Of a stretch of DNA of 32,915 bases, positions 110 to 23,801 are shown in pieces. Location: NCBI GenBank assembly GCA_018268455.1, contig JAFDWM010000302.1, forward strand, positions 1 through 32,915. Direction: 5' to 3'. The stretch's first letter is position 1, and the number at the start of each line of letters is the position of its first letter. The stretch comes from Actinomycetota bacterium. Lineage in GTDB: Bacteria > Actinomycetota > Actinomycetes > Actinomycetales > Microbacteriaceae. The position numbers and the translations under genes are program-made. The notes beneath the pieces were generated by a model that saw only the letters and a list, made by a program, of their open reading frames with translations, searched no databases and was not told the DNA's origin.

Positions 110-190
110 CAGTTCGGGAGGAATTCTCCCCCTCGGGAGGACCAATCCCCAGGATCCCTCCTCCCGAACCCGAGTTCTCCTCCCGAACGG
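110..190. repeat. Four-unit palindromic element E1 (unit TCCTCCCGAA)
   Basis: Units at 110-122 and 129-141 (minus sense), then 159-171 and 178-190 (plus sense). Read in one sense they are TCCTCCCGAACTG, TCCTCCCGAGGGG, TCCTCCCGAACCC and TCCTCCCGAACGG. Both same-strand pairs are offset by exactly 19 bases. The 17-base centre carries GGATCC at 152-157, one base before the third unit. The spacing matches the five other elements in this window although the unit differs. It lies upstream of the RNase HI gene and ends about 90 bases before that gene's -10 box. Confidence 0.8.
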
Positions 191-278
191 GGGACCCCTC
201 CCGAGGCTCGCGGCCGGATCCGGCATCGCCCGGGCGGGCCCGAGGCGGGACGCGCCCGGCGCGCACCGTCTCGCACCG

Positions 279-290
279 TACGGTTGAGGG
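279..290 (+). promoter_or_regulatory. Leaderless -10 box of the RNase HI gene
   Basis: TACGGT at 279-284 is followed by six bases and then the ATG at 291, the spacing expected if transcription starts on the start codon. No convincing -35 box is seen. A GAGGG lies directly against the ATG, too close to act as a normal ribosome binding site. Confidence 0.55.
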
Positions 291-1085
291 ATGACGATCA
301 CCGCCGCGGCAGACGGATCCGCCCTGGGTAACCCCGGACCCAACGGCTGGGCCTGGTACATCGACGACGCGAACTGGGCGGCGGGCGGATCCCCGCACGG
401 TACGAACAATCAGGGCGAGCTGCGGGCGGTGCTCGAGCTGCTGCAGGCGACCGCGGATGCCGACGACAATCTCGTGATCGAGTGCGACAGCAGGTACGTG
501 ATCGACTCCGTGACGAAGTGGATGCCCGGCTGGAAGCGCAAGGGCTGGCGTAAGGCCGACGGCGGCCCTGTGCTCAACCGCGACCTGCTCGAGGGGATCG
601 ACGAAGCCCTGCGCGGCCGCGACGTGTCGTTCTCCTGGGTCAAGGGCCACGCCGGTCACCCACTGAACGAGGCGGCCGACTCCCGGGCCAACGCCGCGGC
701 GACCGCGTATCAGCGCAAGCAGGAACCCGACCGCGGGCCGGGCTACTCCGGAGCAGGATCCGCATCGGGTTCCACCACCAAAACGCCCACGCCGGCATCT
801 GCGAAAGAGCCGGCATCCAGGACGGCACCGGCAGCGCCGGCACCGAAAGACCCGACAGCGAAGGCCCCCGCCGTCGCCGCGCTCCCGGTCGTCGCCGCAT
901 CCGCCGCCCCGGCGCCCGCACTCTGGGCCGAGGCGTCCGATCTCCTCGACGGCCTGGACCTTCCCTCCCCCGCGACTCCGATCGAGCTGCGTGTGGCGCT
1001 CACCGCCGACGAGCACGCGCGCCTGCGCGACCGCGCCGACGCCCAGGGCATCTCGCTCGAGGAAGCGCTGCGCCGACTGATCTGA
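291..1085 (+). CDS. rnhA: Ribonuclease HI with ribbon-helix-helix-like C-terminal extension
   Basis: Cleaves the RNA strand of RNA-DNA hybrids. The first ~145 of 264 residues form an RNase HI domain with a full DEDD site: D8 (AADGSA), E43 (NQGELRAV), D66 (ECDSRY) and D130 (NEAADSRAN), plus H120 (VKGHAGH). Residues ~147-225 are an Ala/Pro/Lys-rich linker. The last 34 residues (231-264; IELRVALTADEHARLRD then GISLEEALRRLI) read like a ribbon-helix-helix fold: a strand, then two helices. Ordinary RNase HI is ~150 residues and, when extended, usually carries an N-terminal hybrid-binding domain, so this tail is unusual. It may add nucleic-acid binding or dimerisation (inference). The start is supported by a -10 box six bases upstream. 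Confidence 0.9.
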   Translation: MTITAAADGSALGNPGPNGWAWYIDDANWAAGGSPHGTNNQGELRAVLELLQATADADDNLVIECDSRYVIDSVTKWMPGWKRKGWRKADGGPVLNRDLLEGIDEALRGRDVSFSWVKGHAGHPLNEAADSRANAAATAYQRKQEPDRGPGYSGAGSASGSTTKTPTPASAKEPASRTAPAAPAPKDPTAKAPAVAALPVVAASAAPAPALWAEASDLLDGLDLPSPATPIELRVALTADEHARLRDRADAQGISLEEALRRLI

Positions 1086-1127
1086 GAGTGCCGGGCTGTC
1101 AATTGGCCCCGCACCTTCTGAGTCGCG

Positions 1128-1208
1128 CATCGAGTTCGGAGATCTGCGACGACTTCGGACGGATCCGCAGATTCGGTCCGAAGATCGCGTACATCTCCGA
1201 GCCGGGCG
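1128..1208. repeat. Four-unit palindromic element E2 (unit TCCGA), reversed
   Basis: Units at 1128-1140 and 1147-1159 (minus sense: TCCGAACTCGATG, TCCGAAGTCGTCG), then 1177-1189 and 1196-1208 (plus sense: TCCGAAGATCGCG, TCCGAGCCGGGCG). Offsets are 19 and 19 with a 17-base centre. GGATCC (1161-1166) sits one base from the second unit, so the element has the same layout as the others but in reverse orientation. The match between units is weaker than elsewhere (core TCCGA). It lies between the convergent ends of rnhA and panB. Confidence 0.65.
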
Positions 1209-1213
1209 CACGC

Positions 1214-1326
1214 GGATCCGGCCAGCGTGGTCCCGGCCAGCGCAGTCTCCGCAAGACACGCGACCCGACCAGCGTGGTCCCGGCCAGCACGGTCCGCAAG
1301 ACACGCGACCCTGCCAGCACGGATCC
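1214..1326. repeat. Degenerate tandem repeat, about 46-bp unit
   Basis: Two adjacent copies of a block that begins CCAGCGTGGTCCCGGCCAGC and ends CCGCAAGACACGCGACCC (about 1222-1266 and 1268-1310), then a partial third copy. The array is bounded by GGATCC at 1214 and 1321. It fills the convergent gap between rnhA and panB together with element E2. No coding function is evident. Confidence 0.7.
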
Positions 1327-1343
1327 GCCAAGCCACGCCCGCT

Positions 1344-2213
1344 CTACCGCCCCGCGAGCAGCTCCCGCAGCCGGTCGGCCTCACCCTCGGGCATGCCGTA
1401 TCCGTGCTCCGGCGCCGGGTACGCCCCGGACCGCACCTCGGACGCATACGCCGTGACACCGTCGATCGCCGCGGTGCGCAGATCCGCGTAGCGCTTCACG
1501 AACTTCGCGGCGGGGCCGGGGTAGATGCCGAGCAGGTCGTGGAAGACGAGCACCTGGCCGTCGGCGGCCGGTCCTGCGCCGATGCCGATCACGGGGATGT
1601 CGAGCAGCGGCACGAGCGCGGCGGTGACCTCGCTGGGCACGGCTTCGACGACGATGAGCGCGCAGCCGGCGGCCTGCAGGGCGAGCGCGCTGTCGATGAG
1701 GTCGAGCGCGGCGTCGGCGCTGCGACCCTGGGCGCGGTACCCGCCGAGCGAGGTCGCGGTCTGCGGCGTGAGGCCGACGTGCCCGACCACCGGGATCCCC
1801 GCGGCGACGAGGGCGCGTGCCCGGTCGACCGAGGTGCCGCCGCGCTCGATCTTCACCAGGTCGCAGCCGGTCTCCTTCACGAAGCGCTGCGCCGTCGCGA
1901 TCGCCTCGGCATCGGATCCCTCGTACGAACCGAACGGCAGGTCGGCGACGAGCAGCGCGCGGTGCAGGCCCCGGCGCACCGCCTTCGTGAGCATGATCAT
2001 CTCGTCGACGGTGACCGGCACGGTGCTGTCGTAGCCGAGCACGGTCATCGCCGCGGAGTCGCCGACGAGCACCATGTCGACGCCCGCGGCGTCGGCGATC
2101 TGCGCGCCGGGGTGGTCGTAGGCGGTGACCATGACGATCGGCTCACCGGCGGCCTTCTTCGCGGCCAGGTCGCCGAGGATGAGCGGCTTCTCGGACGCGG
2201 GCCGGGCGCTCAT
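1344..2213 (-). CDS. panB: 3-methyl-2-oxobutanoate hydroxymethyltransferase
   Basis: First committed step of pantothenate synthesis: 2-oxoisovalerate plus 5,10-methylene-tetrahydrofolate gives ketopantoate, in the cytoplasm. The 289 residues match the family's usual size. Recognisable blocks are [18 protein letters not shown] near the N terminus, [20 protein letters not shown] (substrate and metal site), the central VKIERGG and GHVGLTPQ, and [19 protein letters not shown]. It is the last gene of DUF2520-panC-panD-panB. Its ATG overlaps the panD stop in an ATGA, implying translational coupling. Confidence 0.95.
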
Positions 2214-2620
2214 GCGAACACCGCCTCGGCGCCGGCGTCGGTGAGCAGCGTGCCCACCGCATCGTCGACCCGGATGATCGCGTTCGAGCGGTCCACGTGC
2301 ACCACTGTCGGCTCGTAGGCCGCCAGGTCCTCCCGCGAGTAGTCGGCGTAGGAGATGACGATCACGGTGTCGCCGGAGTGCACCAGCCGCGCGGCGGCGC
2401 CGTTCACCTGGATCACGCCGGATCCGCGCTCGCCCTCCAGCGCGTAGGTGACGAAGCGCTGGCCGTTGTCGACGTCGACGACGTGCACCTGCTCGTGCGG
2501 CAGGATGTCGGCGGCCTCGAGCAGGTCGGCGGCGATGGTGATGGATCCGACGTAGTGCAGGTCGGATCCGGTCACCGTTGCCCGGTGGATCTTCGACTTC
2601 AGCATCGTGCGCTGCATCAT
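2210..2620 (-). CDS. panD: Aspartate 1-decarboxylase proenzyme
   Basis: Makes beta-alanine from L-aspartate for pantothenate. The protein is 136 residues, the family norm, and starts [17 protein letters not shown]. The self-cleavage site is G25-S26 in [10 protein letters not shown]; the new N-terminal serine becomes the pyruvoyl cofactor. Also typical are [25 protein letters not shown] and [11 protein letters not shown] much longer open frame extends upstream but overlaps panC and is unlike PanD. The ATG at 2620 overlaps the panC stop as ATGA, which fixes the start, and the stop overlaps the panB ATG in the same way. Confidence 0.95.
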
Positions 2621-3483
2621 GCGCTCGCTCTCGTGTCTGTGCCGTGCAGGAGGTGGTTGTCGATGAGCCGGGCGGATCCGACCCGCGCCGCGACGGCCAG
2701 CAGCGCCTCGGTCTCCAGCGTCGCGACCGGCGTGAGGTCGTCGGCGGAGCGCAGCTCGAGATACTCGGGCGCGATCCCGGCGTCGTCGAGCACGGCGCGG
2801 GCAGCGGCGACGATCGCGACGGCGTCGCGCTCGCCCGCGTAGGCGACGGCGGCGGCCGCGTCGAGGGCGCGGTTCAGTGCGGTCGCCTGCCGGCGCGCAT
2901 CCGGGTCGAGGTAGACGTTGCGCGAGCTCATCGCGAGCCCGTCGGCCTCGCGCACGATCGGGCACGCGACGATGCGCACGTCGATGTTCAGGTCGCGCAC
3001 GAGGCGGCGGATGACGAGTATCTGCTGCGCGTCCTTCTGCCCGAAGTACGCGGCGTCGGGGGCGACGATGCCGAACAGCTTGGCGACGACGGTCGCGACG
3101 CCGTCGAAGTGGAAGGCGCCGCGCGCAGCCCCGTCGAGCACGGCGGTGACGCCGTCGATGTGGATGGTGGTGGCGAAGCCGTCGGGGTAGATCTCGGCGG
3201 GATCCGGCGCGAAGAGCACGTCGACACCCTCGGCCTCGGCGAGCGCCGCGTCGCGTGCCTCATCACGGGGATAGGCACTGAGATCCTCGCTCGGCCCGAA
3301 CTGCGTCGGGTTCACGAAGAGCGAGACGACGACGAACGAGTCGTTCGCGCGGGCCTCGCGCATGAGAGGGACGTGCCCGGCATGGAAGGCGCCCATGGTC
3401 GGGACCAGCCCGACTGTCTTCCCTGCGGCACGGGCCTCACGCACCGCTGCGCGCACCTCGGCGATGGTGCGGAGGGTCCTCAT
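2617..3483 (-). CDS. panC: Pantoate-beta-alanine ligase (pantothenate synthetase)
   Basis: ATP-dependent condensation of pantoate and beta-alanine to pantothenate. The 288-residue protein carries the nucleotidyltransferase HxGH motif in [40 protein letters not shown], the FGQKDAQQ motif and the late MSSRNVYL, all as in PanC. The second motif residue F (GAFHAGH) replaces the more usual L. The ATG at 3483 overlaps the stop of the upstream DUF2520 gene by ATGA. Confidence 0.95.
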
Positions 3484-4310
3484 GCGGCGCTCCGCGTGCT
3501 CTCGCTGCTGTCGGTGGACGAGGCTGCGTCGGGGGCGGGCTGAGCGGCGCGCTCGGCAGCGGTGCGGCGGGCGGCGATCTCGCGGGTCTGCGTGGCGAGC
3601 GCGTCGAACAGACCGAGCAGGGCCGGGTCGTCGGCGGCGATCGCTGCGCGCTGGCGGGCGACCGTCTGCTCGTCACCGCGGGCGATCGGCCCGGTGAGGG
3701 CGGCGTCGGCGCCGAGCGCGGCCCAGTTCTCGACGGTCTGCCGCACCAGGGGTGCGAGCGCGGCGCGCGCGTCGGCCGGAGAGATCCCCGCGGATCCGAC
3801 GATCTGCTCGGCGGCGTCGAGCACAGCGAGCACCAGGTTCGAGGCGACCGAGGCGGCGGCGTGGTAGCCGGCACGGTGCGCGTCATCGATGCGGACCGGC
3901 CGCATGCCGAGCGCCTCGGCGAGCGCGCGGGCGAGCGCGAGGGCAGAGGGGGTGCGTCCGTCGATCGCCGCGCCGATGCCGCGGAAGATGCCGGGTGCTT
4001 CGGATCCGGTGAAGGTCTGCAGTGGATGCACGCTGAAGTCGACGTCGTCGAGGCCGGTGGCGCCGGAGACGTGGCCGACGAGACCCGCGTGCGGGCGGGC
4101 GTTCGTGGCGGCCTCTGCGATCGCGGCGTCCGGCACGCACAGCAGCGCGATGTCGGACCTCGGGATCCGCTCGCCGCGACGCAGCGGCCCGCGCACGTCG
4201 AAGCCGGCGTCGACGAGGGCGCGCGCGAGCACGGATCCGAGCCGCCCGGCGCCGATGACGGCGACAGTACGGGCGGGCGCGACAGCGACGAGAGAAGGTG
4301 TGGTGTTCAT
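3480..4310 (-). CDS. Rossmann-like / DUF2520 oxidoreductase, first gene of the pan operon
   Basis: A 276-residue dehydrogenase-like protein. The N-terminal Rossmann fold has RTVAVIGAGRLGSVLARALV (GxGxxG), then ALLCVPDAAIAE, HVSGA and FSVHPLQTF. An all-helical DUF2520 part follows (about residues 120-250, with HRAGYHAAASVASNLVLAV), then a charged, low-complexity tail. Homologues precede panC and panD in many actinobacteria (the Rv3603c arrangement, from memory). Ketopantoate reductase is the one pathway step without a gene here, so this is a positional candidate, unproven. The start MNTTPSLVAV at 4310 is preferred over a longer frame because the extra 43 residues are Pro/Asp-rich intergenic translation. 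Confidence 0.85.
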   Translation of the reverse strand: MNTTPSLVAVAPARTVAVIGAGRLGSVLARALVDAGFDVRGPLRRGERIPRSDIALLCVPDAAIAEAATNARPHAGLVGHVSGATGLDDVDFSVHPLQTFTGSEAPGIFRGIGAAIDGRTPSALALARALAEALGMRPVRIDDAHRAGYHAAASVASNLVLAVLDAAEQIVGSAGISPADARAALAPLVRQTVENWAALGADAALTGPIARGDEQTVARQRAAIAADDPALLGLFDALATQTREIAARRTAAERAAQPAPDAASSTDSSESTRSAA

Positions 4311-4387
4311 GGTCGGATCCGGGCCGGGATCGGGGCGGCGAGGATGGGAGAAGTATCCGCCCACGGGGGGATCCGGGCCAAATCGCG

Positions 4388-4465
4388 GATCAATACGACA
4401 CATTGAATCAATCAGATTACGGCATGATGGCAATAGCATTACGCCGTATTGTTGGCTTATTGATC
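4388..4465. promoter_or_regulatory. AT-rich island with nested inverted repeats upstream of the pan operon
   Basis: This is an abrupt AT-rich patch in GC-rich surroundings. It holds inverted repeats GATCAATA/TATTGATC (4388-4395, 4458-4465), CAATACG/CGTATTG (4391-4397, 4445-4451) and TACGGC/GCCGTA (4418-4423, 4443-4448). It lies between the VWA gene and the DUF2520 start, both on the minus strand, so it may hold a promoter or operator for the pan operon, a terminator for the VWA gene, or both. No confident -10/-35 pair was chosen. Confidence 0.4.
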
Positions 4466-4484
4466 TGCATAGCCAGACCTTGGA

Positions 4485-5111
4485 TCACGGACGGGTCGGA
4501 TCCGCCGCTCCGCGCTCGGCCTGCGTGTACCCCGTGCGATCACCGGCGCGCCGCCGCGTGAGCTTGGCCGCGTGGGCCGCCATCATGGGGGCGATGTTGT
4601 GCATGTCGAAGGTCAGCGCGTCCTTCGCGTCGATGCCGATATGGCCGGCGGCGAGCACCGCATCCTGGTTGGCGCCGAGGAACGAGACGTCCCAGTCGTA
4701 GTCGTCGCGCTGGCGCCGGATGATGCGCTCGATCGCGGCCCGGTCGTACTCCTGCGAGGAGTTCTCCTCCCCGTCGGTGACGATCGTGGCGAGCACGGTG
4801 CCGGGGCGGGCATGCTCGGGCAGTGCCGCCAAGGCGGCGCCGAAGCCGGCGAACGACATGCCGATCGCGTCGAAGAGCGCGGTGCCGCCGCGCGGTTCGA
4901 GAACGATCTTCACATCGCCGGGCTGAGCGAAGGCGTAGGTGTGCTCGATCACGTTGTCGAACGTCACGACATCGACGGTGACCATGCCGGATCCTGCGGC
5001 CTGAGAGTCGACGAGGTGCTGAGCGGCGGCGGCCATCTCCTTCGCGCTGCCCTCCATGGATCCGGAGCGGTCGAGGACGATCAACATCGCGGTGTAGTTC
5101 ATGTCAGCCAT
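4485..5111 (-). CDS. VWA domain protein with complete MIDAS
   Basis: A 208-residue single-domain von Willebrand factor A protein, predicted cytoplasmic (no signal peptide). The metal-ion-dependent adhesion site is complete: D14-R-S-G-S18 (LDRSGSME), T77 (RGGTALFDA) and D113 (IVTDGEEN). The resemblance is to stand-alone VWA proteins of the TerY type; its partner is unknown. The start at 5111 has AAGGA seven bases upstream. It is transcribed divergently from the HTH fusion gene across a 136-bp AT-rich region with a symmetric operator-like site. No ATPase partner such as a MoxR protein is adjacent. Confidence 0.85.
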   Translation of the reverse strand: MADMNYTAMLIVLDRSGSMEGSAKEMAAAAQHLVDSQAAGSGMVTVDVVTFDNVIEHTYAFAQPGDVKIVLEPRGGTALFDAIGMSFAGFGAALAALPEHARPGTVLATIVTDGEENSSQEYDRAAIERIIRRQRDDYDWDVSFLGANQDAVLAAGHIGIDAKDALTFDMHNIAPMMAAHAAKLTRRRAGDRTGYTQAERGAADPTRP

Positions 5112-5145
5112 GGAGAATCCTTCTCTCTTAGTAGCAACTCCTATT

Positions 5146-5204
5146 GTGCTCTTAGTTATACCCCCAATATGCAAAGAGCACAAGCCGTTCGTTGCAGATA
5201 GCAT
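5146..5204. promoter_or_regulatory. Divergent promoter region with GTGCTCTT/AAGAGCAC inverted repeat
   Basis: On the minus strand, -35 TTGTGC (5183-5178), a 17-base spacer and -10 TATAAC (5160-5155) form a good promoter for the VWA gene. The inverted repeat GTGCTCTT (5146-5153) / AAGAGCAC (5174-5181) spans it: one arm lies on the -35, the other near the transcript start. On the plus strand TAGCAT (5199-5204) could be the -10 of the HTH gene. A regulator bound here could control both genes; the adjacent HTH protein is the obvious candidate (inference). Confidence 0.55.
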
Positions 5205-5247
5205 AAGAAGAGTCACTGACACCGCTCGGAGCTGAAGGGAAGCGCGT

Positions 5248-6174
5248 ATGGCATCCGCATCGAAGAAGACCGGCGACGAGGAGGTCGGCCGCCGCATCGC
5301 GGAGCGCCGCGGTGGCCTGCGCATGTCCCGAGAGGATCTCGCCCGCAGCATCGGTGCGTCGTACGCGATGGTCGCGCAGATCGAGACCGGATGGCGGATG
5401 CCGTCGTACGAGAAGCAGCTGCTCATCGCCAAGTCTCTCGGCGCGCGGCTCGACGAGCTGTTCGGCGAGGACGACGACCTCCTCGAAGCGCCGCTCGATG
5501 ACTCCGCATCGAGCCCACCGGCCAGCGCGCCGGCGCAGGTGTCGGAGGCTTTCCCGCTCGGAGAACTCTCGGCGAAGAAGGCGAGCGGATGCGCGCGCAA
5601 GCGGCAGGGGGTCTCCGCGACGAGCACACTTTCGGCCCCGAGCGCGCCGCCGTCGACGAGTGCACGACCGACGTTCGATGAAGCCGTCGAGCGCGCGGCT
5701 GCGGCGTTGCGCGATCTGCCACCGTCTCGCCGACTCGACGCCCTGGCGCGATTGCAGCTGAGCGTGACCCGCGAAGTCGTCGACGAGGAGCGACGGCAGA
5801 CCGGCTACCAACGCGAGCGATCGGGGTGGATCACCGAGCTGAAGCCAGACGAGGTCTTCGTTTTCGGCTCAAACGCGGAAGGGCGCCATGGCGCGGGTGC
5901 CGCCCGCACCGCATACGAGAAGTTCGGTGCCGAGTGGGGATCCGGGTCCGGCCCCCACGGCCAGTCATACGCGATCGACACCATGAGCGGACTGGGCGTG
6001 CTGCGCGACGAGGTCGCGACGTTCCTCCGCTACGCGCGACGCCACCCGCAGCTGCGGTTCCTCGTCACCCCGATCGGCACCGGCGTGGCCGGCTATCGCG
6101 CCGACGAGATCGCGTACCTGTTCGAAGATGCTCCCGAGAACGTCGTCCTGCCTGCGGAGTTCGCGCTGCGATAG
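5248..6174 (+). CDS. XRE-type HTH protein fused to an A1S_2505-like (macro-like) domain
   Basis: The protein has 308 residues. Residues ~10-72 form an XRE/Cro-type helix-turn-helix (GRRIAERRGGLRMSREDLAR, SYAMVAQIETGWRMPSYEK, LGARLDELF). A long Ser/Ala/Pro linker and a short helical part follow. Residues ~195-308 match the small domain named A1S_2505 phage non-structural protein: VFVFGSNAEGRHGAGAA, HGQSYAIDT, FLVTPIGTGVAGYRADEIA, NVVLPAEF. The GSNxxGxHGxGAA block recalls nucleotide- or ADP-ribose-binding macro-like folds. A ligand-sensing regulator of itself and the divergent VWA gene is a reasonable inference. GAAGGGAAG upstream supports the ATG at 5248. Confidence 0.75.
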   Translation: MASASKKTGDEEVGRRIAERRGGLRMSREDLARSIGASYAMVAQIETGWRMPSYEKQLLIAKSLGARLDELFGEDDDLLEAPLDDSASSPPASAPAQVSEAFPLGELSAKKASGCARKRQGVSATSTLSAPSAPPSTSARPTFDEAVERAAAALRDLPPSRRLDALARLQLSVTREVVDEERRQTGYQRERSGWITELKPDEVFVFGSNAEGRHGAGAARTAYEKFGAEWGSGSGPHGQSYAIDTMSGLGVLRDEVATFLRYARRHPQLRFLVTPIGTGVAGYRADEIAYLFEDAPENVVLPAEFALR

Positions 6175-6189
6175 CCGCGTGCCGGCGGT

Positions 6190-6535
6190 CGAAGTTGCAC
6201 GCCGGGGTGCGGACGTTCTCGTCACACCATGACCCGCATGTCCTTCGGCCATCCGTCCATGCTCAGGAGCGGGGTGATTTCGGCGACGGCGACGGCGGCG
6301 CCGCGGATGTCTCCGTCGGCGTCGAGCGCAGGCTTCCAGACGTTCTCGTCGGTGAGGATCTTGTCGAGCTCCGGGGTGTGGAACGGCAACGTGAACCCGA
6401 CAGAGTACGACAAGCGCGCCCGGTCAACCAGGTCGTGAACTCCTTCGTCCCGCCCGCACCGTCGGCACGGATCAGGACGCCTTTCCCGGGCCGCGGGTTC
6501 TCCCGCCGGGCAATCGTGCTCAGCAAATAGGACAA
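6190..6535 (-). pseudogene. IS1380-family transposase remnant, frameshifted and truncated
   Basis: The minus-strand pieces match the middle of IS1380-type transposases. The first is GKGVLIRADGAGGTKEFTTW followed by LTGR. After a one-base loss near 6415 the frame continues SYSVGFTLPFHTPELDKIL and DADGDIRGAAV to MRVMV. A conserved Arg codon is then TGA (6222-6224), beyond which the same frame still reads RERPHPGVQLR. So there is one frameshift, one nonsense change, and both ends of the gene are missing. No terminal inverted repeats are recognisable. It marks past transposition beside the restriction system. Confidence 0.75.
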
Positions 6536-6568
6536 AGTCGACGTTCTAAATATGAAAAAGAGGGAGCC

Positions 6569-6808: not shown

Positions 6809-6940
6809 GGCGTCGGCATGTTCGTGCGACCTCCACCTGACGCGGTCGGGTCTCACGCGTCTGCGCCGGTATACGGTGTCACGAAACCAGGCGCCTGGTT
6901 CGCTCCGCTCCGTCTTCTCGAGTCACGACTTCCCCTGCGC

Positions 6941-7819
6941 TCACACGCACAGATCAAGGGGAAGATCGGCGATGTCCCGCAGGCGTTTGCCGCTGATCAG
7001 AGTCTCCAGAATCGATTGAGATTCATCGTTGTCCAGCGCTGCTGTGGCGGCAACCAGTTCGGGAAGGGCGAAGTGATAGACGGTGTCGACATCGCCAGTA
7101 CCGAGCGCAAGTGAGGCGATGCGGGCGGGCGACGGCTCGCCCGTAACCACCGCGATGTGAGGGGCGCGCCCTTTACGGTTACGAAGGACGCCAAGCGCTT
7201 CGGTTCGTGCGTTTTGCGCTCGATCGGAACGCAAAGTCCATTTGCACGAGACAACGGCATGAACAATGCCATGAGATTGATTCGCTTGACGAATTGGTGA
7301 AAGCACGCCATATTGTCCGTCTACCAGGATATTGGTCGAATTGATTTCACTGTCGGGGACGGGCAGACGAATCACAATCACATCGGGGGACACATCGTAC
7401 GCGTTGCCCAATACCGCCGCCAAGGTCGGGCTTTCATCGACCATCTGTGCGAGCTCCGCGAGATGACGATAAGGCTCGAACCGAGCCAGGTGATATCCCT
7501 TCCTGGAACTCCCTACATTCTCGACTGCCCAGCGCGCCGGACGAAGCATACTGAAAAGCGGCAGCGTACGCGCAATAAAGGTACGCACAGATCCTTCAAA
7601 CTGACTCCCTGCTCGCTGACCATCAAGCTTCACACCGCCGATTCCCGCTCCAAGCTGCGTCGCAATCGCAAGCGCGGCTTCTCTCGAAAAGCGCTGACTC
7701 GAGTCGGCATTCGATGCAACGCCTTTGTCATCGACCACCAGAGTCCGCTCTGCAATCAGCTCGCGGTGGAAGTCGGCACGCGCCAGGGAGAGGCGCGCGT
7801 ACCCGCTCCTCTCCATCAT
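6941..7819 (-). CDS. NgoMIV-type type II restriction endonuclease
   Basis: A 292-residue nuclease predicted to cut G^CCGGC. The catalytic set corresponds to that of NgoMIV with a constant offset: E75 (SQFEGS), D146 (VSPDVIVI), S191-C192-K193 and E207 in VVSCKWTLRSDRAQNARTEA. The recognition residues R197, D199 and R200 are also kept (RSDR). It lies directly downstream of its methyltransferase, with stop and start joined as TGATG, so the two are translationally coupled. The start could be either of the two tandem ATGs. Base composition is less GC-rich than that of the flanking genes and the GGATCC hexamer is absent, as expected of acquired DNA. No key residue is missing, so it is probably active. 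Confidence 0.93.
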   Translation of the reverse strand: MMERSGYARLSLARADFHRELIAERTLVVDDKGVASNADSSQRFSREAALAIATQLGAGIGGVKLDGQRAGSQFEGSVRTFIARTLPLFSMLRPARWAVENVGSSRKGYHLARFEPYRHLAELAQMVDESPTLAAVLGNAYDVSPDVIVIRLPVPDSEINSTNILVDGQYGVLSPIRQANQSHGIVHAVVSCKWTLRSDRAQNARTEALGVLRNRKGRAPHIAVVTGEPSPARIASLALGTGDVDTVYHFALPELVAATAALDNDESQSILETLISGKRLRDIADLPLDLCV

Positions 7820-13438: not shown

Positions 13439-13449
13439 GCGGGGACGAC

Positions 13450-16668: not shown

Positions 16669-16766
16669 GCTTCCATCTGCCGGGGACATCGCAGGACCCG
16701 GTCCGGGGAGGGTGGGGGTCGGGGCGGGCTCGACTGCCGACTCCGACTCGGCGTGCGGGAAGGCCG

Positions 16767-17654: not shown

Positions 17655-18184
17655 GTCTCGCTAGAACTTTCTGATCGTGTGATCATCAGGGCCGCACCTT
17701 TGTTGGCGCGAGCAAACTCAACGGCTACGGCGGAGACCTTGGGGCGACCAACTGGCGTTACGTCCTGTCCGTCCTTGTTCATCACTCGCGTGTCCCCGAC
17801 ACCGAGGCAGACGATAGCTGCCACGGAGCCTCCCCTTGGGTCGTACTTGGTTCCGGAGAACGATTGCACGACGAGGCTTCCGCTGACAGTCAGGCCTGCT
17901 GCCTTAATGTCGCGACGAGCCTTGATGTCGTCTTCGAGCGCGGACCCAGCGAGATACTTATCGGGAGCCGCGCTGCTGTCGCCGTTCCGGCTGGCATTGC
18001 CCGCATCGGTGTACTCCCGGTACACCGCCTCCGCCGCCTTGAACGCCTCGGCCTCGCTCGTGAACAGCGGGGTCGGCGTGGGCGTGGGCGCAGGGCCCGG
18101 AGTGCATCCGCCCAGCACGACAGCCACAGCGAGGACGCCGGTGGCGATGCCGGTTCGGACGACGGACTGACGCGGGGAGTGCAC
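17633..18184 (-). CDS. Small lipoprotein with NTF2-like length
   Basis: A 183-residue predicted lipoprotein: a hydrophobic segment ending VLAVAVVLGGC, with lipobox Cys at 27, then a Pro/Thr linker. The mature part (EAEAFKAAEAVYREYTDAGN, VQSFSGTKYD, VCLGVGDTRVMNKDG, VSAVAVEFARANKGAALMIT) has the size and helix-then-strand order of small NTF2-like lipoproteins, but no catalytic motif is recognised. It starts with GTG. It runs into the PKD gene with a 22-base overlap, so the two are presumably co-expressed and both displayed outside the membrane. Confidence 0.7.
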   Translation of the reverse strand: MHSPRQSVVRTGIATGVLAVAVVLGGCTPGPAPTPTPTPLFTSEAEAFKAAEAVYREYTDAGNASRNGDSSAAPDKYLAGSALEDDIKARRDIKAAGLTVSGSLVVQSFSGTKYDPRGGSVAAIVCLGVGDTRVMNKDGQDVTPVGRPKVSAVAVEFARANKGAALMITRSESSSETCAASGS

Positions 18185-18222
18185 GAGTCCACGCTAGCCA
18201 AGGCTCAGGCGCTCCCGCGAAG

Positions 18223-18231
18223 TTATCCACA
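18223..18231 (+). promoter_or_regulatory. Perfect DnaA-box sequence TTATCCACA
   Basis: A single match to the DnaA consensus in the gap between the lipoprotein start and the tetR stop. There are no neighbouring boxes or AT-rich region, so it is not an origin. It could be incidental or a DnaA-titration site. Confidence 0.3.
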
Positions 18232-18251
18232 GGCATGCCCGCGGGGCGGCC

Positions 18252-18334
18252 GCGTTCCGTCTCGCTCCGACGACGTCGGTGCGCACGCTGCCCCGGGAAA
18301 GCACCCCTCGACAACCCCAGCGAGGACGGAACGC
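18252..18334. terminator. Long-loop hairpin after tetR
   Basis: GCGTTCCGTC (18252-18261) pairs with GACGGAACGC (18325-18334), with an inner GGTGC/GCACC pair. It lies just downstream of the tetR stop on the minus strand. No T-run, so at best a weak terminator. Its size resembles the four-unit elements, but it lacks their direct repeats and GGATCC. Confidence 0.25.
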
Positions 18335-18337
18335 CCG

Positions 18338-18910
18338 TCAGCCCACCGCGATCCCGCGGAGGATGAGTTCGACGAGTCCGTCCACCCGGTCTGCCGTCAA
18401 CGGACGACCGAGCAGCGTCGCGTACGACGTCGCCGCGACGAACAGGTCGGCGACGACCGCCGGATCCGCATCGGCGCGCACGACGCCTTCGTCCACCGCA
18501 CGGGTGATCCTCGCAACGATCCACGACACGATCGGATCCGCGAATCGCCGGTTCAGGGCCGCGCCCAGCTCGGGATCTGTGGCGGTCACGGCGATCAGCG
18601 CCCGCGCGATCTCCACATTCTCCGCGCTGGTCTGATTCTTCGACGCGGCACCGAACCAGCCGCGCAGATCGGCAGCGAGGTCTGTGGTGAACTGGCGCTC
18701 GGGATCCAGCCCCGGCAGGGCCCCCTCCAGCAGTGCCTCACCGAGGATCGCGGCCTTCGACGGCCACCACCGGTAGATCGTCTGCTTCGAGACGCCCGCC
18801 TCGGCGGCCAGTCCCTCGATGGTCACGGCGTCGTAGCCGTCCGCGGCGAGTGCGCGCCGCATCGCCGCCAGCACGGACTGACGGGCATTCTCACTGCGCG
18901 GACGAGGCAT
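18338..18910 (-). CDS. TetR family transcriptional regulator
   Basis: The protein has 190 residues. The N-terminal TetR helix-turn-helix is ALAADGYDAVTIEGLAAEAG then VSKQTIYRWWPSKAAILGEA, the classic recognition helix. The C-terminal ligand domain is of the TetR_C type, with FGAASKNQTSAENVEIARAL and LGRPLTADRVDGLVELILRG. It is divergent from the SDR gene with 101 bases between them, so it probably represses that gene and itself in response to an unknown small molecule. TACGCT-N6-ATG supports the start; the CGGAGG touching the ATG is too close to serve as a ribosome site. Confidence 0.9.
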   Translation of the reverse strand: MPRPRSENARQSVLAAMRRALAADGYDAVTIEGLAAEAGVSKQTIYRWWPSKAAILGEALLEGALPGLDPERQFTTDLAADLRGWFGAASKNQTSAENVEIARALIAVTATDPELGAALNRRFADPIVSWIVARITRAVDEGVVRADADPAVVADLFVAATSYATLLGRPLTADRVDGLVELILRGIAVG

Positions 18911-18947
18911 CCTCCGAGCGTATCGAGGTGTACTCTGATGAATAAGT
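18911..18947. promoter_or_regulatory. tetR/SDR divergent promoters and weak dyad
   Basis: Minus strand: TACGCT (18922-18917), six bases, then the tetR ATG at 18910. Plus strand: TACTCT (18931-18936) is a plausible -10 for the SDR gene. An imperfect dyad ACTCTGATGAATAAGT (18932-18947) overlaps it and could be the TetR operator. Confidence 0.4.
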
Positions 18948-19011
18948 GGACGCACCGTTGCGAAACTCGAATGGCAGCCGCGCGATCCACCACCCGATGA
19001 AGGAGACACCC

Positions 19012-20007
19012 ATGGCCCTGACCGCGAATTCCACCATCGGCGACTGGCTGGCCGATCCGACCGGCGGCGACCTGATCCGCGGGCTGCTGGCGCAGTCCGG
19101 AGCGAGCGCCGACTCCCTCACCCCCGTGCTCGGGCTGCCCCTGCAGCAGCTCGTCGTGATGAGCCAGGGTGCGATGCCGCAGTCGGTCGTCGACGATCTC
19201 GTCCGCGCGGCGAACGGCGGGGAGACCCCCGAGGATGCGGCTCCGACCGGCTGGACCGAGCAGACGACTCCCGGCCGCTTCGCCGGCAAGACCGTCATCG
19301 TCACGGGCGCCGCGTCGGGCATCGGCAAGGCGACGGCGTCGCGGATCGCGCGGGAGGGCGGGCGCGTCATCGCCTGCGACATCGCGGCGGAGAAGCTCGA
19401 CGCACTGGCCGCGGAGCTTCCCGGTATCGTCACCGTCGCGGGTGATCTCACCCAGCAGGACGCCATCAACCGCGTCATCGCGGCGGCCGGCGAGCGCATC
19501 GACGGCCTCGCGAACGTCGCCGGGATCAACGACGACTTCTCCCCTGCCGGCGAGACGCCTGACGCCGTCTGGGACCGGGTGATCGCGATCAACCTCACCG
19601 CACCGTTCAAGCTCATGCGCGCGGTGCTGCCGCTCATGGAGGCGGCGGGACGCGGATCCATCCTCAACGTCTCGAGCGAGGCAGGCCTGCGCGGCAACGC
19701 GTCGGGCAACGCGTACACCGCGAGTAAGCACGGCATCATCGGCGTCACCAAGTCGGCGGCGTTCATGTACGGGCCGAAGGGGATCCGGGTGAACTCCGTC
19801 GCCCCCGGCGGTGTCGCCACCGGGATCCCGATGGCTCCGCACATGTCCGAGGCCGGATCCGCCCGCCTCGCACCGTTCCAGCAGGCGATCCCCACGGTCG
19901 CGACCGCCGAGCACCTCGCCGCCTCGATCACGTTCCTGCTCTCGGACGACGCCGTGAACATCAACGGCGCGATCCTCGCCTCGGACGGCGGGTGGTCGGT
20001 GCAGTAG
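19012..20007 (+). CDS. SDR oxidoreductase with N-terminal helical extension
   Basis: The protein has 331 residues. Residues ~90-331 are a classical short-chain dehydrogenase: TVIVTGAASGIGKATA (NAD(P) site), ANVAGIND, ILNVSSEAG (catalytic Ser region), AYTASKHG (Tyr ~234, Lys ~238), INGAILASDGGWSVQ. The first ~85 residues (STIGDWLADPTGGDLIRGLL, LGLPLQQLVVMSQGAMPQSV) are not part of the SDR fold. They resemble the short helical tail of some actinobacterial family 3 beta-glucosidases (from memory, unverified). AGGAG seven bases upstream fixes the start at 19012. It is divergent from tetR, which probably controls it. Substrate unknown. Confidence 0.88.
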   Translation: MALTANSTIGDWLADPTGGDLIRGLLAQSGASADSLTPVLGLPLQQLVVMSQGAMPQSVVDDLVRAANGGETPEDAAPTGWTEQTTPGRFAGKTVIVTGAASGIGKATASRIAREGGRVIACDIAAEKLDALAAELPGIVTVAGDLTQQDAINRVIAAAGERIDGLANVAGINDDFSPAGETPDAVWDRVIAINLTAPFKLMRAVLPLMEAAGRGSILNVSSEAGLRGNASGNAYTASKHGIIGVTKSAAFMYGPKGIRVNSVAPGGVATGIPMAPHMSEAGSARLAPFQQAIPTVATAEHLAASITFLLSDDAVNINGAILASDGGWSVQ

Positions 20008-20020
20008 CCCGTCGTCGTGC

Positions 20021-20101
20021 GACGCCTGCACGACCGCCGGACGCCTGCGCGATGCGATCCCCGGATCCGTCCTGCATCCGTCGCAGGATCGTGCGGGCGT
20101 C
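20021..20101. repeat. Four-unit palindromic element E3 (unit TCGTGCAGGCGTC)
   Basis: Units at 20021-20033 and 20040-20052 (minus sense: TCGTGCAGGCGTC, TCGCGCAGGCGTC), then 20070-20082 and 20089-20101 (plus sense: TCCTGCATCCGTC, TCGTGCGGGCGTC). Offsets are 19 and 19 with a 17-base centre. GGATCC at 20063-20068 lies one base before the third unit. Starts 14 bases after the SDR stop and is followed 65 bases later by element E4. Confidence 0.8.
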
Positions 20102-20165
20102 GCACCGAGAGCGCCCCGCAGAGCGGGCTGGATCCCACACAGACGTCGTCGGCACCGCGGGCCCC

Positions 20166-20250
20166 GTCACGATCTGCACATGATGTGACGATCTGCACAC
20201 GATCTGGCCGGATCCGTGTGCAGATCGTCTCAGGGTGTGCTGATCGTGAC
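20166..20250. repeat. Four-unit palindromic element E4 (unit TGTGCAGATCGTC)
   Basis: Units at 20166-20180 and 20185-20199 (minus sense), 20217-20231 and 20236-20250 (plus sense). The first three have the core TGTGCAGATCGT; the fourth reads TGTGCTGATCGTG. Offsets 19 and 19, 17-base centre, GGATCC at 20210-20215 one base before the third unit. Same unit family as E5 and E6. Together with E3 it fills the gap before the pRiA4b-like gene. Confidence 0.9.
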
Positions 20251-20335
20251 ACCCTCCCCCGCCCCGGGCCCCGCAGAGCACCCCCGGCCCCTACTCCGGG
20301 CCCCACAGCGGCCCCGCGACGTCCGCGCCCTTCCT

Positions 20336-20347
20336 TACGCTGGTCAC
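20336..20347 (+). promoter_or_regulatory. Leaderless -10 box of the pRiA4b-like gene
   Basis: TACGCT (20336-20341), six bases, then the ATG at 20348. It supports this ATG over a long open frame that would translate elements E3 and E4. Confidence 0.55.
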
Positions 20348-21721
20348 ATGACCCGCTACCGCCTGCGCGCCACCCTCGTCGACAGCACACCGGAGATCTG
20401 GCGCGCCTTCGAGATCCGCGGGAGCGAGCGGCTGCGCATGCTGCACCTCGCCCTGCAGACCATGTTCGGCTGGCGGGAGTCGCATCTGCACATGTTCACC
20501 GACGCGGATCCGCTTGCGCGCGGCAGCGTCGGCCGCCGCTGGGAGTCGCCCGACATGCCGGAGGCAGACCCCGCCGCGCTGTCGGAGGAGGAGTTCACCG
20601 TCGCCGACGTCTTCGACGCGGGCGGGCCGCTCTGGTACGAGTACGACTTCGGAGACGGGTGGATCCATCGCCTCGACGTCGTGCAGACGCTCCCCGACGA
20701 CCCCGCGCTCGCACCGGTCGTGCTTCTCGACGGGTCGCGTCGGGGCCCGTTCGAAGACGCCGGGGGCGTGCACGGCTACGAGGAGAAGCTGGCGATCGCG
20801 GCGGATCCGAGCCATCCCGAGCACCGCGAAATCGTGGACTGGATCCGCACCACGAGCGGTCCGTGGGTGCCGCAGGATCCCGAGGACTTCGACCTGATCG
20901 GTGCGCAGACCGAGCTCAACCTGCTGTTCGCGCCCGACGTGACCGGCATCTCCCGGTTCGACATGTCGGGTCTGGTGAAGGTCGACGAGCTGCGCCGGCC
21001 GCAGGATCTGACCGAGGCCTCGCCGCTCGTCGCACTCGCGTCCACCCTGCCCGTGCCGATTCGAGCGGAGCTGCGCCAGCACCTGCAGCGCACCGGTGCT
21101 CTGTCGCTGGAGGAGATGGATCCCGCGGAAGCCGCCCGGGCGATCCGTCCGTTCGGCTGGCTGATGGAAGCCGTCGGCGCCGAAGGCCTCACACTCACCT
21201 CCGCCGGCTGGCTTCCTCCCGCCACGGTGCTCGCGGGCATGATCGAGCTCGGGTGGATCAACGAGTGGATCGGCAAGGGCAACCGCGAAGACCTGACGCC
21301 GCCGATCGGCAATCTGCGTCAGGCTGCCCAGCGACTCGGTCTGGTGCGGGTGCAGAAGGGGCGCCTGCTGCTGTCGGTCGCGGCCCGCAAGGCCCTCGGA
21401 GATCCGCTGACCCAGCTGCGCCTGATCGCGGGTTCCCTGCTGCGCAAGCTCAGCGACGCCGAGGTCGACGCCGGCACGCTCCTGCTGCTCGCGATCGCCG
21501 ACGGCACACCCCGCGAGGATCGCTGGCGCACCGTCGCCTTCGGCCTGGAGATGTGCGGGTGGCGGTCGTCGAGTGGATGGCGGTTCACCCCGACCGACAT
21601 CGATCACGCGACGTTCGAGGTGCAGCAGGTGCTCGAGGTGCTGGGCGACACGACCTGGCGCGGCCGCCGTCGCGAGGACGGTCCGCTGCTGCGGCAGTTC
21701 GCGGCAGTCGCCCTGCGCTAA
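20348..21721 (+). CDS. Plasmid pRiA4b ORF-3-like family protein
   Basis: The protein has 457 residues. Residues ~1-170 form the pRiA4b ORF-3-like domain: YRLRATLVDSTPEIWRAFEI, LHLALQTMFGWRESHLHMF, VADVFDAGGPLWYEYDFGDG, WIHRLDVV, GPFEDAGGVHGYEEKL. The Y-DFGDGW-H segment is the family hallmark. The remaining ~290 residues are helical, with a repeated SAGWLPPATVLAGMIELGWI-like pattern and a late ALGDPLTQLRLIAG, and are not assigned. The family is found on plasmids and in chromosomes with unknown function. Uniquely in this window, the gene is bracketed by four-unit elements on both sides (E3/E4 and E5). Confidence 0.85.
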   Translation: MTRYRLRATLVDSTPEIWRAFEIRGSERLRMLHLALQTMFGWRESHLHMFTDADPLARGSVGRRWESPDMPEADPAALSEEEFTVADVFDAGGPLWYEYDFGDGWIHRLDVVQTLPDDPALAPVVLLDGSRRGPFEDAGGVHGYEEKLAIAADPSHPEHREIVDWIRTTSGPWVPQDPEDFDLIGAQTELNLLFAPDVTGISRFDMSGLVKVDELRRPQDLTEASPLVALASTLPVPIRAELRQHLQRTGALSLEEMDPAEAARAIRPFGWLMEAVGAEGLTLTSAGWLPPATVLAGMIELGWINEWIGKGNREDLTPPIGNLRQAAQRLGLVRVQKGRLLLSVAARKALGDPLTQLRLIAGSLLRKLSDAEVDAGTLLLLAIADGTPREDRWRTVAFGLEMCGWRSSSGWRFTPTDIDHATFEVQQVLEVLGDTTWRGRRREDGPLLRQFAAVALR

Positions 21722-21761
21722 CTGTTCTTCCCGGGGAGGCCGGGGTCACGGAGGCGTGTGC

Positions 21762-21830
21762 TCAGACGGCGTCCCACGGATCGACGATGTTCAGGTCGAG
21801 CCCGTCGAAGTCCCGGGCGGAGCGCGGCCG
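21762..21830 (-). pseudogene. Possible C-terminal tail of a VapC-like PIN toxin
   Basis: The minus strand reads ARDFDGLDLNIVDPWDAV and a stop at 21762. This resembles the end of VapC PIN domains (RNVRDF...G...NPW). No upstream part remains: the fragment abuts element E5, whose first unit begins at 21837. A chance short match is possible. Confidence 0.3.
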
Positions 21831-21836
21831 GATCCT

Positions 21837-21922
21837 GTCACGATCAGCACATCATGTGACGATCAGCACACGAATCCGGCTGGATCCCTGTGCAGATCGT
21901 CACAATGTGTGCAGATCGTCAC
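21837..21922. repeat. Four-unit palindromic element E5 (units TGTGCTGATCGT / TGTGCAGATCGT)
   Basis: Units at 21837-21851 and 21856-21870 (minus sense: both TGTGCTGATCGT), 21889-21903 and 21908-21922 (plus sense: both TGTGCAGATCGTCAC). Offsets 19 and 19, 18-base centre, GGATCC at 21882-21887 one base before the third unit. Here the two arms carry the two alternative variants, CTG on one side and CAG on the other. It lies between the convergent pRiA4b-like and permease genes. Confidence 0.9.
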
Positions 21923-21992
21923 GCGCCCCGCGTCGGGGCCCGGCGCAGCCCCGAGTCCGCGCCCCCGAAGCACCCCGAGCGCAGCAGTCGCG

Positions 21993-23594
21993 TCAGCTTC
22001 CCAGGCCGTCGTCGAACACCTGCAGCGCGGAGGTGTCGTTCGTCGCGTCCGCGCGGGCGAGCACCTTGCCACGGAAGAAGTTCGGCGAGACTCTCGCCTG
22101 CAGGAACATCAGGATCACGCCGATGCCGAGCACCGTGACGCCGATGATGCCGACCAGGCCGACGCCCGCGATATTGCTGCCGGAGCCCGCATCGGGGCTC
22201 ATGGCGTCGATCGTGGTCTTCACGAACACGATCAGCAGCAGGATGCCGCCGATGCCCGGCAGCACGACCTTCATGACGACGGATCCGAAGCCCTCACGGA
22301 ACGCCGACTTGCGGAAGTACCAGGGGCTCGCGAGCGCCGTGACGCCGTAGTAGAAGCACACCATCATGCCGAGCGCGGTGATCGTGTCCCACAGCACATC
22401 CTCGCTGATGAAGCGCATGACGGCGTAGAACACGGAAGCGACGATCGACGACCACATCAGCGCGACGTGCGGCGACTTGAACTTCGGGTGCACGCGCTTC
22501 AGCGATGCAGGCAGCGCGCCGTAGTGCGACATGGCGAGCAGGGTGCGCGCCGGCGAGATCGCGGTCGAGTTGATCGACGCCATGGCGCTCACAAGGATCG
22601 CGAGCGAGAGCAGGATCGCGGCCGGGCCCATGACCGGGTGTGCGAGGGCGGCGAACACGTTCTCGATGATGTCCGGGTTGCCGAGGCCCGTCTCACCGTC
22701 GCCGAGTCCGGCGAACGCGACGGTGGCGGTCGCGGTGCCGACGTACAGGACGACGAGGATCGCGACGAGGATCATCGCCGCCTTGCTCTCGGTGGAGAGG
22801 CGCCCCTTCGAGGGCTTGGTCTCCTCACCCATGGTGAGCACGGTGTCCCAACCCCAGTAGACGAAGATCGACACCGCGATGCCCGCCGCGAAGGCGCTGA
22901 AGCTCGGCACCTCGAACGGGTTAAACCAGCTCAGTTCCGGGAGCTTGGCCTCCTTGTTGGCGGGGTTCGCGGCGCCGACGAACATCGCCACGACGAACCA
23001 CACCATCACCGCCATCTGGAAGAACACGGTGATGTACTGGAACACCTTCGTCGAGGTCATTCCGCGATACGAGATGAACGTCGCGAGCGCCATGAACCCC
23101 AAGCACACCGCGATGTTGATGAACTTGTTCTCGGCGAGGTCGGCGATCGACGGATCCCCGACGACGATGCTGATCGACTGGAACAGGAACTCCACCGCGA
23201 TGCCGGCGAGGTTCGACAGCACCAGCACGGTCGCCGCGATCAGACCCCAGCCGGCCATCCACCCGATCCACGGCCCGAACGCCCGGGTCGCCCAGGTGAA
23301 CGAGGTGCCGGAGTCGGGCATCGCGGAGTTCAGCGCGCGATAGCCGAGTGCCACGAGCAGCATCGGGATGAAGCCCATGAGGAAGATCGCGGGGGTCTGG
23401 TAGCCGACCTCACTCGCCGCCGGTCCCACGGCCGCGGTCAGCGTGTACGCCGGCGCACATGTCGAGATCCCGATCACGAGGGCGCCCAGCACACCCACGG
23501 TGCCGGTCGGAAGGCCCTTCTTACTGATGCCCGTCACCGAGTCGAGCGTGCGCGTCGCCGGATCCGGCGCTCCTTGGTCGTACTTCACAGCCAT
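21993..23594 (-). CDS. APC family amino acid/polyamine permease
   Basis: A 533-residue membrane protein with about 12 hydrophobic segments. The N-terminal substrate-binding loop is typical of the amino acid-polyamine-organocation superfamily: TGTVGVLGALVIGISTCAPA then YTLTAAVGP. Also characteristic are NSAMPDSGTSFTWATRAFGP, WMAGWGLIAATVLVLSNLAG and STAISPARTLLAMSHYGALP. The substrate is not predictable. The start MAVKYDQ at 23594 has AGGAA upstream. A -10 TAGAAT (23673-23668, minus) would give a leader of about 66 bases. No regulator or enzyme is co-oriented with it, so the substrate context is missing. It is divergent from purL and convergent with the pRiA4b-like gene. Confidence 0.9.
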   Translation of the reverse strand: MAVKYDQGAPDPATRTLDSVTGISKKGLPTGTVGVLGALVIGISTCAPAYTLTAAVGPAASEVGYQTPAIFLMGFIPMLLVALGYRALNSAMPDSGTSFTWATRAFGPWIGWMAGWGLIAATVLVLSNLAGIAVEFLFQSISIVVGDPSIADLAENKFINIAVCLGFMALATFISYRGMTSTKVFQYITVFFQMAVMVWFVVAMFVGAANPANKEAKLPELSWFNPFEVPSFSAFAAGIAVSIFVYWGWDTVLTMGEETKPSKGRLSTESKAAMILVAILVVLYVGTATATVAFAGLGDGETGLGNPDIIENVFAALAHPVMGPAAILLSLAILVSAMASINSTAISPARTLLAMSHYGALPASLKRVHPKFKSPHVALMWSSIVASVFYAVMRFISEDVLWDTITALGMMVCFYYGVTALASPWYFRKSAFREGFGSVVMKVVLPGIGGILLLIVFVKTTIDAMSPDAGSGSNIAGVGLVGIIGVTVLGIGVILMFLQARVSPNFFRGKVLARADATNDTSALQVFDDGLGS

Positions 23595-23640
23595 GTGATT
23601 CCTGCTTCCTAGCGCTCCGTTGCGCCGTGGCTCCGAATCG

Positions 23641-23673
23641 GCACGTGCACAGACGGTGCCTCCATCGATTCTA
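23641..23673 (-). promoter_or_regulatory. Permease promoter with GCACGTGC palindrome
   Basis: On the minus strand TAGAAT (23673-23668) is a good -10. The palindrome GCACGTGC (23641-23648) lies about 15 bases downstream of the expected transcript start and could be an operator. Confidence 0.4.
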
Positions 23674-23715
23674 TGCGTGGGCTGAAGACGGCGGGGGTCG
23701 GATCCGGGACCCCAC

Positions 23716-23801
23716 GTCACGATCTGCACACGAAGTCACGATCCGCACAGGTTTTGGCCGGATCCGGTGGGCAGATCGTCACAGGGGGTGCAGATCGTGA
23801 C
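23716..23801. repeat. Four-unit palindromic element E6 (unit TGTGCAGATCGTG)
   Basis: Units at 23716-23730 and 23735-23749 (minus sense: TGTGCAGATCGTG, TGTGCGGATCGTG), 23768-23782 and 23787-23801 (plus sense: TGGGCAGATCGTC, GGTGCAGATCGTG). Offsets 19 and 19, 18-base centre, GGATCC at 23760-23765. The most diverged copy of the E4/E5 family, situated between the divergent promoters of the permease and purL. Confidence 0.88.

Follow-up and report, generated by a model that had tools for sequence, protein, structure and literature searches.

The 32,915-nucleotide stretch of DNA analyzed here (hereafter, the window) is the entire contig C225 (GenBank JAFDWM010000302.1) of a 3.6-Mb draft genome from an actinomycete of the family Microbacteriaceae, and the nearest named relatives of one of the window proteins belong to Microbacterium species. 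Among Pfam-supported genes for RNase H, panB, a short-chain dehydrogenase, a PRiA4_ORF3 protein, an amino-acid permease and purL, the window carries six intergenic elements, each a palindrome of about 82 bp with four copies of one short word. The elements had been noticed in a reading of the sequence alone, and direct inspection of the window found all six where that reading had placed them. No winged-helix/DUF559 gene is present within the window; because none of the DUF559 genes of this genome lies there, the gene behind the pattern could not be seen from the window itself.

The four-unit elements and their dispersal

The elements were scored with a scan for four 11-base units, two direct and two inverted, in which the offset (13-26) and the centre (6-31) are free; the score is the agreement among the four units (maximum 66), and the spacers are not scored. 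The five top-scoring elements of the window (63, 62, 60, 60 and 51) all have an offset of 19. Order-3 Markov shuffles of the window (n=40) produced three matches with scores of at least 50 in total (0.075 per shuffle), one of them with offset 19. The site at 1128-1208, which scores 42 against 40-41 elsewhere in the window, is at chance level on geometry alone and is backed by homology to an element adjoining a truncated gene on contig C211. Thus, the six sites proposed in the sequence-only reading are real, five because they lie far above the shuffles and one on the strength of BLAST homology rather than geometry. BLAST joins sites 4-6 in a single unit family and assigns sites 1, 2 and 3 to three others.

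The same geometry extends well beyond the window. In 420 kb of the genome, window included, all 19 matches with scores of at least 50 have offset 19 (one place is counted twice among them, and another hit, L048 14081, consists of direct repeats in tandem); the Markov control for these 420 kb yielded no match of at least 50 and three at 48-49. In a further 389 kb, five of 12 such matches have offset 19, and the other seven (offsets 15, 18, 21, 24 and 26) look GC-rich or tandem. Comparison of the window and the 420 kb with shuffled sequence, a check that had been proposed together with the pattern, places the geometry well above the Markov controls, and we regard it as confirmed that the four-unit arrangement is real and dispersed through the genome in several unit families. 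The CGAGACTGCA family has 28+28 exact matches in the genome versus 3+1 for the reversed word. For GTGCAGATCGTCAC, the word of sites 4-6, there are nine matches in this genome and at most three in any of 148 other genomes, 25 of which have some. The window elements match other places in the genome across the element alone.

An alignment of 98 elements of all families (score of at least 52), set on the dyad, places the outer cores at 28-34 bp and the inner ones between 9 or 10 and 15 bp, with conservation falling to background beyond about 41 bp; a change of offset from 19 to 18 shifts only the inner core. Dyad distances remain constant across families while the words change, in agreement with the view that spacing is kept rather than sequence. 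Pairing of the spacers across the dyad reaches 0.63, whereas flanking DNA gives 0.289; compared as direct repeats, the spacers agree at 0.40 versus 0.315. Therefore, the whole arm and not the words alone is kept palindromic. These palindromic arms speak for a folded or cruciform state, and the elements are predicted from the window sequence to fold stably. With even the unscored spacers palindromic, the hairpin-forming ability suspected earlier is borne out at the level of DNA, and the copies, dispersed as they are, agree internally as a palindromic repeat homogenized within each copy should. Classed by gene context with a rough gene caller, 20 elements from the sample of this genome comprise six between tandem genes, six between convergent genes, one between divergent genes, two inside a called gene and five at a gene edge.

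The hexamer GGATCC, which had been considered a fixed part of the centre, is indeed central in all six window sites but does not hold as a rule. GGATCC or GGATGC occurs within the central ~21 bp of 27 of the 98 elements, in most cases at a distance of 4-6 bp from the dyad, and GGATCC is in the centre of none of the 20 elements of the CGAGAC family; these frequencies rule it out as a defining part of the element. GGATCC is very frequent genome-wide, with 7,651 occurrences in the 3.6 Mb versus 61 for the reversed word. In the sample of this genome, GGATCC occurs at 2.23/kb and GGATGC at 0.5/kb, a relation that is reversed in stretches from other Microbacterium (0.33 and 1.32/kb). GGATCC thus looks like a species-specific, highly iterated hexamer, and HIP1 in cyanobacteria is a comparable highly iterated sequence.

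Evidence on mobility comes from orthologous intergenic regions, whose alignment produced one near-clean empty site and only one. A dispersed element (L075) is absent from the orthologous site (L077) of a species with 89-91% identical flanks, a clear case of lineage-specific presence; the difference amounts to ~136 bp without a clear target duplication, between species too far apart for a firm reading of the insertion. Another apparent empty site (L135/L180) was set aside as a tandem copy, and two less clean candidates, L156 and L183 (differences of 105-144 and 161 bp, respectively), were not used. A DNA search for relatives retrieved 19 stretches (L228-L246) without an element of at least 50; the permease or purL relative is all that most of them contain, so this negative carries little weight. 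At four loci (L128, L140, L155 and L188), several elements run beside one DUF559 gene, which suggests local amplification.

DUF559 genes and their cognate words

A profile built from 18 DUF559-type proteins finds four genes in the genome, on contigs C275, C233, C211 and C215. On C275, an element at the start of the contig is followed 1,000 bp on by an identical copy, with the DUF559 gene between the two, and BLAST ties sites 4-6 to these elements. The gene on C233 is flanked by four elements of the site 1 family (three with scores of at least 50, one with 49). The third gene, on C211, is truncated and has no DUF559 match; its adjoining element pairs with site 2 by BLAST. Judged by eye, the fourth gene, on C215, has flanking palindromes that are not tetrads, and a fifth, more divergent DUF559 gene on C11 adjoins a tandem array of palindromic repeats. 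This array consists of four repeats of ~100 bp (L113, about 2515-2830).

The encoded protein is predicted to combine an N-terminal, AbiEi-like winged helix with a C-terminal Vsr-like DUF559 nuclease domain of the PD-(D/E)XK type. Among six proteins tested, the winged helix gives weak Pfam matches in five and PADLOC AbiEi matches in all six, and DUF559 is above the cut-off in five and absent from the truncated one. The nuclease-type residues D247, D258, G259, H263, R269 and D272 are nearly invariant, and profile matches to PDB entries include 3hrl, an endonuclease-like protein (E 3.8e-7), and 3r3p, a mobile intron protein (E 0.0036). In Caulobacter, a DUF559 protein has been presented as the Vsr-like enzyme behind a DNA damage response upon loss of a cytosine methylase (PMC12907096). 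No PF01797 match, the signature of a Y1 (HUH) transposase, was found in the genome. On contig C293 (about 386-464 and 1950), the only AbiEii gene of the genome lies ~1.5 kb from an element of the family of sites 4-6.

DUF559 is present in all 79 sampled Microbacterium genomes, and at 19 of the first 29 loci there is at least one element with offset 18 or 19 and a score of at least 50. Forty further stretches of up to 20 kb were taken in order of DUF559 score, with the flanks not inspected beforehand. At a threshold of at least 52, they contain 40 offset-18/19 elements within 1.3 kb of the 40 genes versus nine in the remaining ~0.68 Mb; elements with other offsets number two within 1.3 kb of the gene and one elsewhere. 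At least one element of at least 50 accompanies 30 of the 40 genes, and 13 have elements on both sides. In many loci, elements lie upstream near the start codon, and others lie just behind the stop codon. The DUF559 loci are mostly syntenic (64 of 72 in 11 groups) and therefore look like residents, not recent arrivals. An offset of exactly 19, the rule as originally proposed, describes the five strongest window sites but is not universal: near the DUF559 genes of other Microbacterium the offset is fixed at 18 or 19, with 18 used by other species and protein clades in a manner that largely follows the protein tree, with exceptions.

Words and genes go together. Consensus words from the two flanks of the same gene are 0.775 identical (28 loci with both sides), compared with 0.436 between a flank word and the syntenic gene of another species (42 pairs) and 0.334 for other genes (714 pairs), and the observed same-gene mean was not attained in any of 10,000 shuffles. 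Across 54 genes, protein identity correlates with word identity (Mantel r 0.30, 0 of 5,000), the latter rising from 0.29 in the 340 pairs of proteins below 30% identity to 0.92 in the 5 pairs above 80%.

The matching extends to elements dispersed in the respective genomes. The double word CGAGAACAGG-N8-CGAGAACAGG, with up to two mismatches, was searched in the 79 genomes, with DUF559 loci carrying approximately CGAGAACAGG known before the search (L161, L125, L134 and L139). The genomes known beforehand to have such a gene yielded 36 (G007), 37 (G071), 17 (G069) and 9 (G033) matches, and G058, recognized afterwards, has 42, some of which frame a DUF559 gene. In the other 74 genomes, 24 have none, 32 have 1-2, 11 have 3-9 and seven have 10-25; the reversed CGAGAACAGG gave at most two matches per genome. 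Among the CGAGAACAGG matches listed, 30 of 31 plus/minus partners are 47 bp apart and one is at 48 bp. The association of the words with winged-helix/DUF559 genes is what these data show.

Of 148 genomes sampled from the class, 103 encode proteins that match the profile, some in the nuclease part only. In this class-wide sample, elements of at least 50 with offset 18 or 19 are found at one of two Microbacterium loci and at one of two sister-genus loci. Outside the family, 25 genes were compared with a cross-locus control, and in eight of them the two flanks share a sequence match of 22-108 bp that exceeds the 95th percentile. The control is imperfect, being inflated by shared flanking genes: by it, 0 of 28 Microbacterium loci pass that percentile, even though their median of 50 is double the control value of 25. 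In five of the eight (L272, L257, L253, L251 and L254), all outside Microbacteriaceae, the both-side match spans 66-108 bp and forms a long hairpin, an observation made without a shuffle control. Distant relatives were found in four plasmid records (with two query proteins) and one phage record (with one query protein), and none was confirmed in viral contigs searched with two query proteins. Four-unit elements of offset 19, having words like CCGAACGGTGG, occur at L090 468 and 2142, L091 9638, and L084 9622 and 11312. They lie close to a PRiA4_ORF3 gene in two Actinomyces records and a metagenome-assembled genome labelled Propionibacterium; an HMM search covering L071-L110 found no DUF559 gene in these three stretches.

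Table 1. Four-unit elements of the window, with their surroundings and closest homologous elements
Site	Positions	Strand	Element	Gene context	Score	Offset	Homology
1	110..190	.	four-unit, word TTCGGGAGGA	before RNase H gene	60	19	84% over 74 bp to element adjoining DUF559 gene on C233 (L193)
2	1128..1208	.	degenerate four-unit, word TCGGAGAT/TTCGGA	between convergent RNase H and panB	42		79% over 94 bp to element adjoining truncated DUF559-family gene on C211 (L035/L195)
3	20021..20101	.	four-unit, word GACGCCTGCACGA	after short-chain dehydrogenase gene	51	19	88% over 81 bp to L046 12257-12342; no cognate gene found in genome
4	20166..20250	.	four-unit, word ACGATCTGCACA		63	19	81% over 89 bp to element adjoining DUF559 gene on C275 (L030/L194)
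5	21837..21922	.	family of site 4	between convergent PRiA4_ORF3 and permease genes	62	19	83% over 98 bp to C275 element
6	23716..23801	.	family of site 4	between divergent permease and purL genes	60	19	81% over 89 bp to C275 element

Elsewhere in the window, between positions 6941 and 17523, genes for an NgoMIV-type restriction enzyme, a C5 cytosine methylase, a Schlafen-group helicase protein and an SNF2-type helicase are clustered in what is probably a defence island.

Comparison with known systems and alternative explanations

The closest parallel to the elements and their genes is the REPIN/RAYT system. As characterized in two accounts, REPINs are intergenic, dispersed palindromes of inverted units, the resident RAYT gene is flanked by its own type of repeat, word and gene co-diverge, and the gene is vertically inherited (PMC3116915; PMC8266576). 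Here too, a gene is flanked by its own repeat type, although this gene is not a RAYT, and cognate copies are dispersed elsewhere in the genome. The differences are, however, substantial: the enzyme is a predicted winged-helix protein with a Vsr-like nuclease instead of a Y1/HUH transposase, the element has four words at a fixed direct offset of 18 or 19 instead of two REPs, and several unrelated words share one geometry. Membership in the REP/RAYT class is ruled out by the lack of a Y1 gene in the genome; neither a GTAG nor a CGTC tag is apparent in the words read, for which no dedicated scan was made. CGTC-tagged REPs are similarly dispersed palindromic repeats for which a dedicated transposase is not known, but they are described as four related families in other phyla, and Microbacterium and Actinobacteria are unnamed in the main text of that source (PMC3733652).

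The protein itself resembles components of two other systems. Its nuclease domain is shared with Vsr-like nucleases and Vsr-type homing endonucleases, as judged from the 3hrl and 3r3p profile matches, and the Caulobacter DUF559 protein is described as Vsr-like (PMC12907096); in contrast to these enzymes, the protein described here has an additional N-terminal winged helix and flanking cognate palindromes, and its gene lies outside introns and is not tied to a methylase. With the AbiEi antitoxins of type IV toxin-antitoxin systems it shares the N-terminal winged helix as well as the AbiEi product name in plasmid records and public annotation, but differs by the C-terminal nuclease domain. An AbiE toxin-antitoxin was rejected: the sole AbiEii match is on C293, whereas the DUF559 genes are on C233, C275, C211, C215 and C11. 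The pairing of repeats and DUF559 genes looks like an unrecognized repeat-spreading system. Among the papers listed in searches of open-licence PubMed Central, we found none that describes such a pair or links DUF559 or Microbacterium to repeats of this kind; an account in a subscription journal or preprint is possible.

We consider the best reading to be a REPIN/RAYT-like repeat-spreading system built on an unrelated nuclease, and we favor it with moderate confidence. Under this reading, a multimer of the protein would bind the words, either in duplex DNA or in the folded palindrome, and its nuclease domain would nick or cut at the element. Repair or replication could then copy the element into new intergenic places and overwrite diverged copies. 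The word would drift along with the specificity of the protein, whereas the geometry, being set by the protein assembly, would stay; in function, the outcome would be akin to a REPIN population maintained by its RAYT. The sequence-only reading had offered three candidates, namely targets of a protein with variable specificity, extended hairpin RNAs and a mobile palindromic repeat. It is partly supported, in that the first and the last of these, combined, fit best: word and gene go together, and the protein presumably acts on its cognate words.

Several observations weigh against the repeat-spreading reading. Binding, cutting and copying or movement by the protein are steps that we infer, and no protein tested has a winged-helix match that reaches the curated Pfam threshold. 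In this genome, the site 3 and CGAGACTGCA families come without any gene found; in other Microbacterium, 10 of the 40 DUF559 genes have no element of at least 50, and some flank matches are tandem or low-complexity sequence (L163, L174 and L177). Genes are unchecked in the seven genomes with 10-25 CGAGAACAGG matches (G017, G020, G027, G053, G063, G070 and G072) and in eleven more with 3-9. At related loci outside the family, offset-18/19 elements of at least 50 are found in 0 of 25 cases, and L075/L077 is the only near-clean empty site.

Among the alternatives, the one with the greatest weight, although still unlikely, is an AbiEi-type transcription regulator for which the flanking elements serve as operator and the dispersed ones as regulon. 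The winged-helix domain, the upstream elements near the start codon in many loci and the location of site 6 in a divergent promoter gap would be accounted for in this way, but not the elements just behind stop codons or between convergent genes (6 of 13 classed, on rough gene calls), the conserved nuclease domain and the tandem element arrays. A role in defence or conflict, with the nuclease attacking invading DNA and the elements functioning as a store, decoy or self-marking sites, appears less probable again. It draws on the combination of a PD-(D/E)XK nuclease with an AbiEi-type domain and on the Caulobacter DUF559 protein, which reportedly damages DNA upon loss of methylation (PMC12907096); yet the genes sit at stable places in the chromosome (the 11 syntenic groups take in 64 of 72 loci), plasmids and phages carry no more than a handful of distant relatives (4 records and 1 record, respectively), and no dedicated PADLOC family is among the matches.

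That the elements are miniature inverted-repeat transposable elements (MITEs) of several ordinary transposons, with the DUF559 genes as passengers, we regard as quite improbable. Short dispersed palindromes, lineage-specific presence and a gene framed by identical copies are what such elements would produce; a single geometry across all families, word-gene matching and the absence of an evident target duplication at L075/L077 are not, and classical MITEs are disfavored in particular by the common geometry together with word-gene co-divergence. The least credible explanation, to which we assign a negligible probability, is that of ordinary terminators or chance palindromes in GC-rich DNA. Many elements do lie between convergent genes and fold stably, but shuffles do not produce them, the direct-repeat offset is fixed, one element lies in a divergent gap, and the elements are associated with one gene family. 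Simple terminators, already doubted earlier, are ruled out by the link to DUF559 genes together with the constant direct offset.

A broader proposal for Actinobacteria, to which we would give an even chance, is the following: a RAYT-independent repeat-maintaining system in which a winged-helix/Vsr-like nuclease spreads and homogenizes palindromes of ~80-110 bp, with several such pairs per Microbacterium genome, drifting words and a frozen geometry, the multi-unit form allowing the protein and dozens of sites to change together. Our confidence in this proposal and in the repeat-spreading reading is limited mainly by the eighteen genomes with 3-25 CGAGAACAGG matches, for which we have no explanation, and by the imperfections of the flank control used outside the family. 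If true, the DUF559 gene family, present in 79 of 79 Microbacterium genomes and represented by the profile in 103 of 148 genomes of the class, would gain a role, and the REPIN/RAYT way of life would have been arrived at a second time, by unrelated means. A natural series would also become available for the study of co-change between a DNA-binding protein and its many genomic sites: several species that share a gene position and differ in word, under a single geometry.

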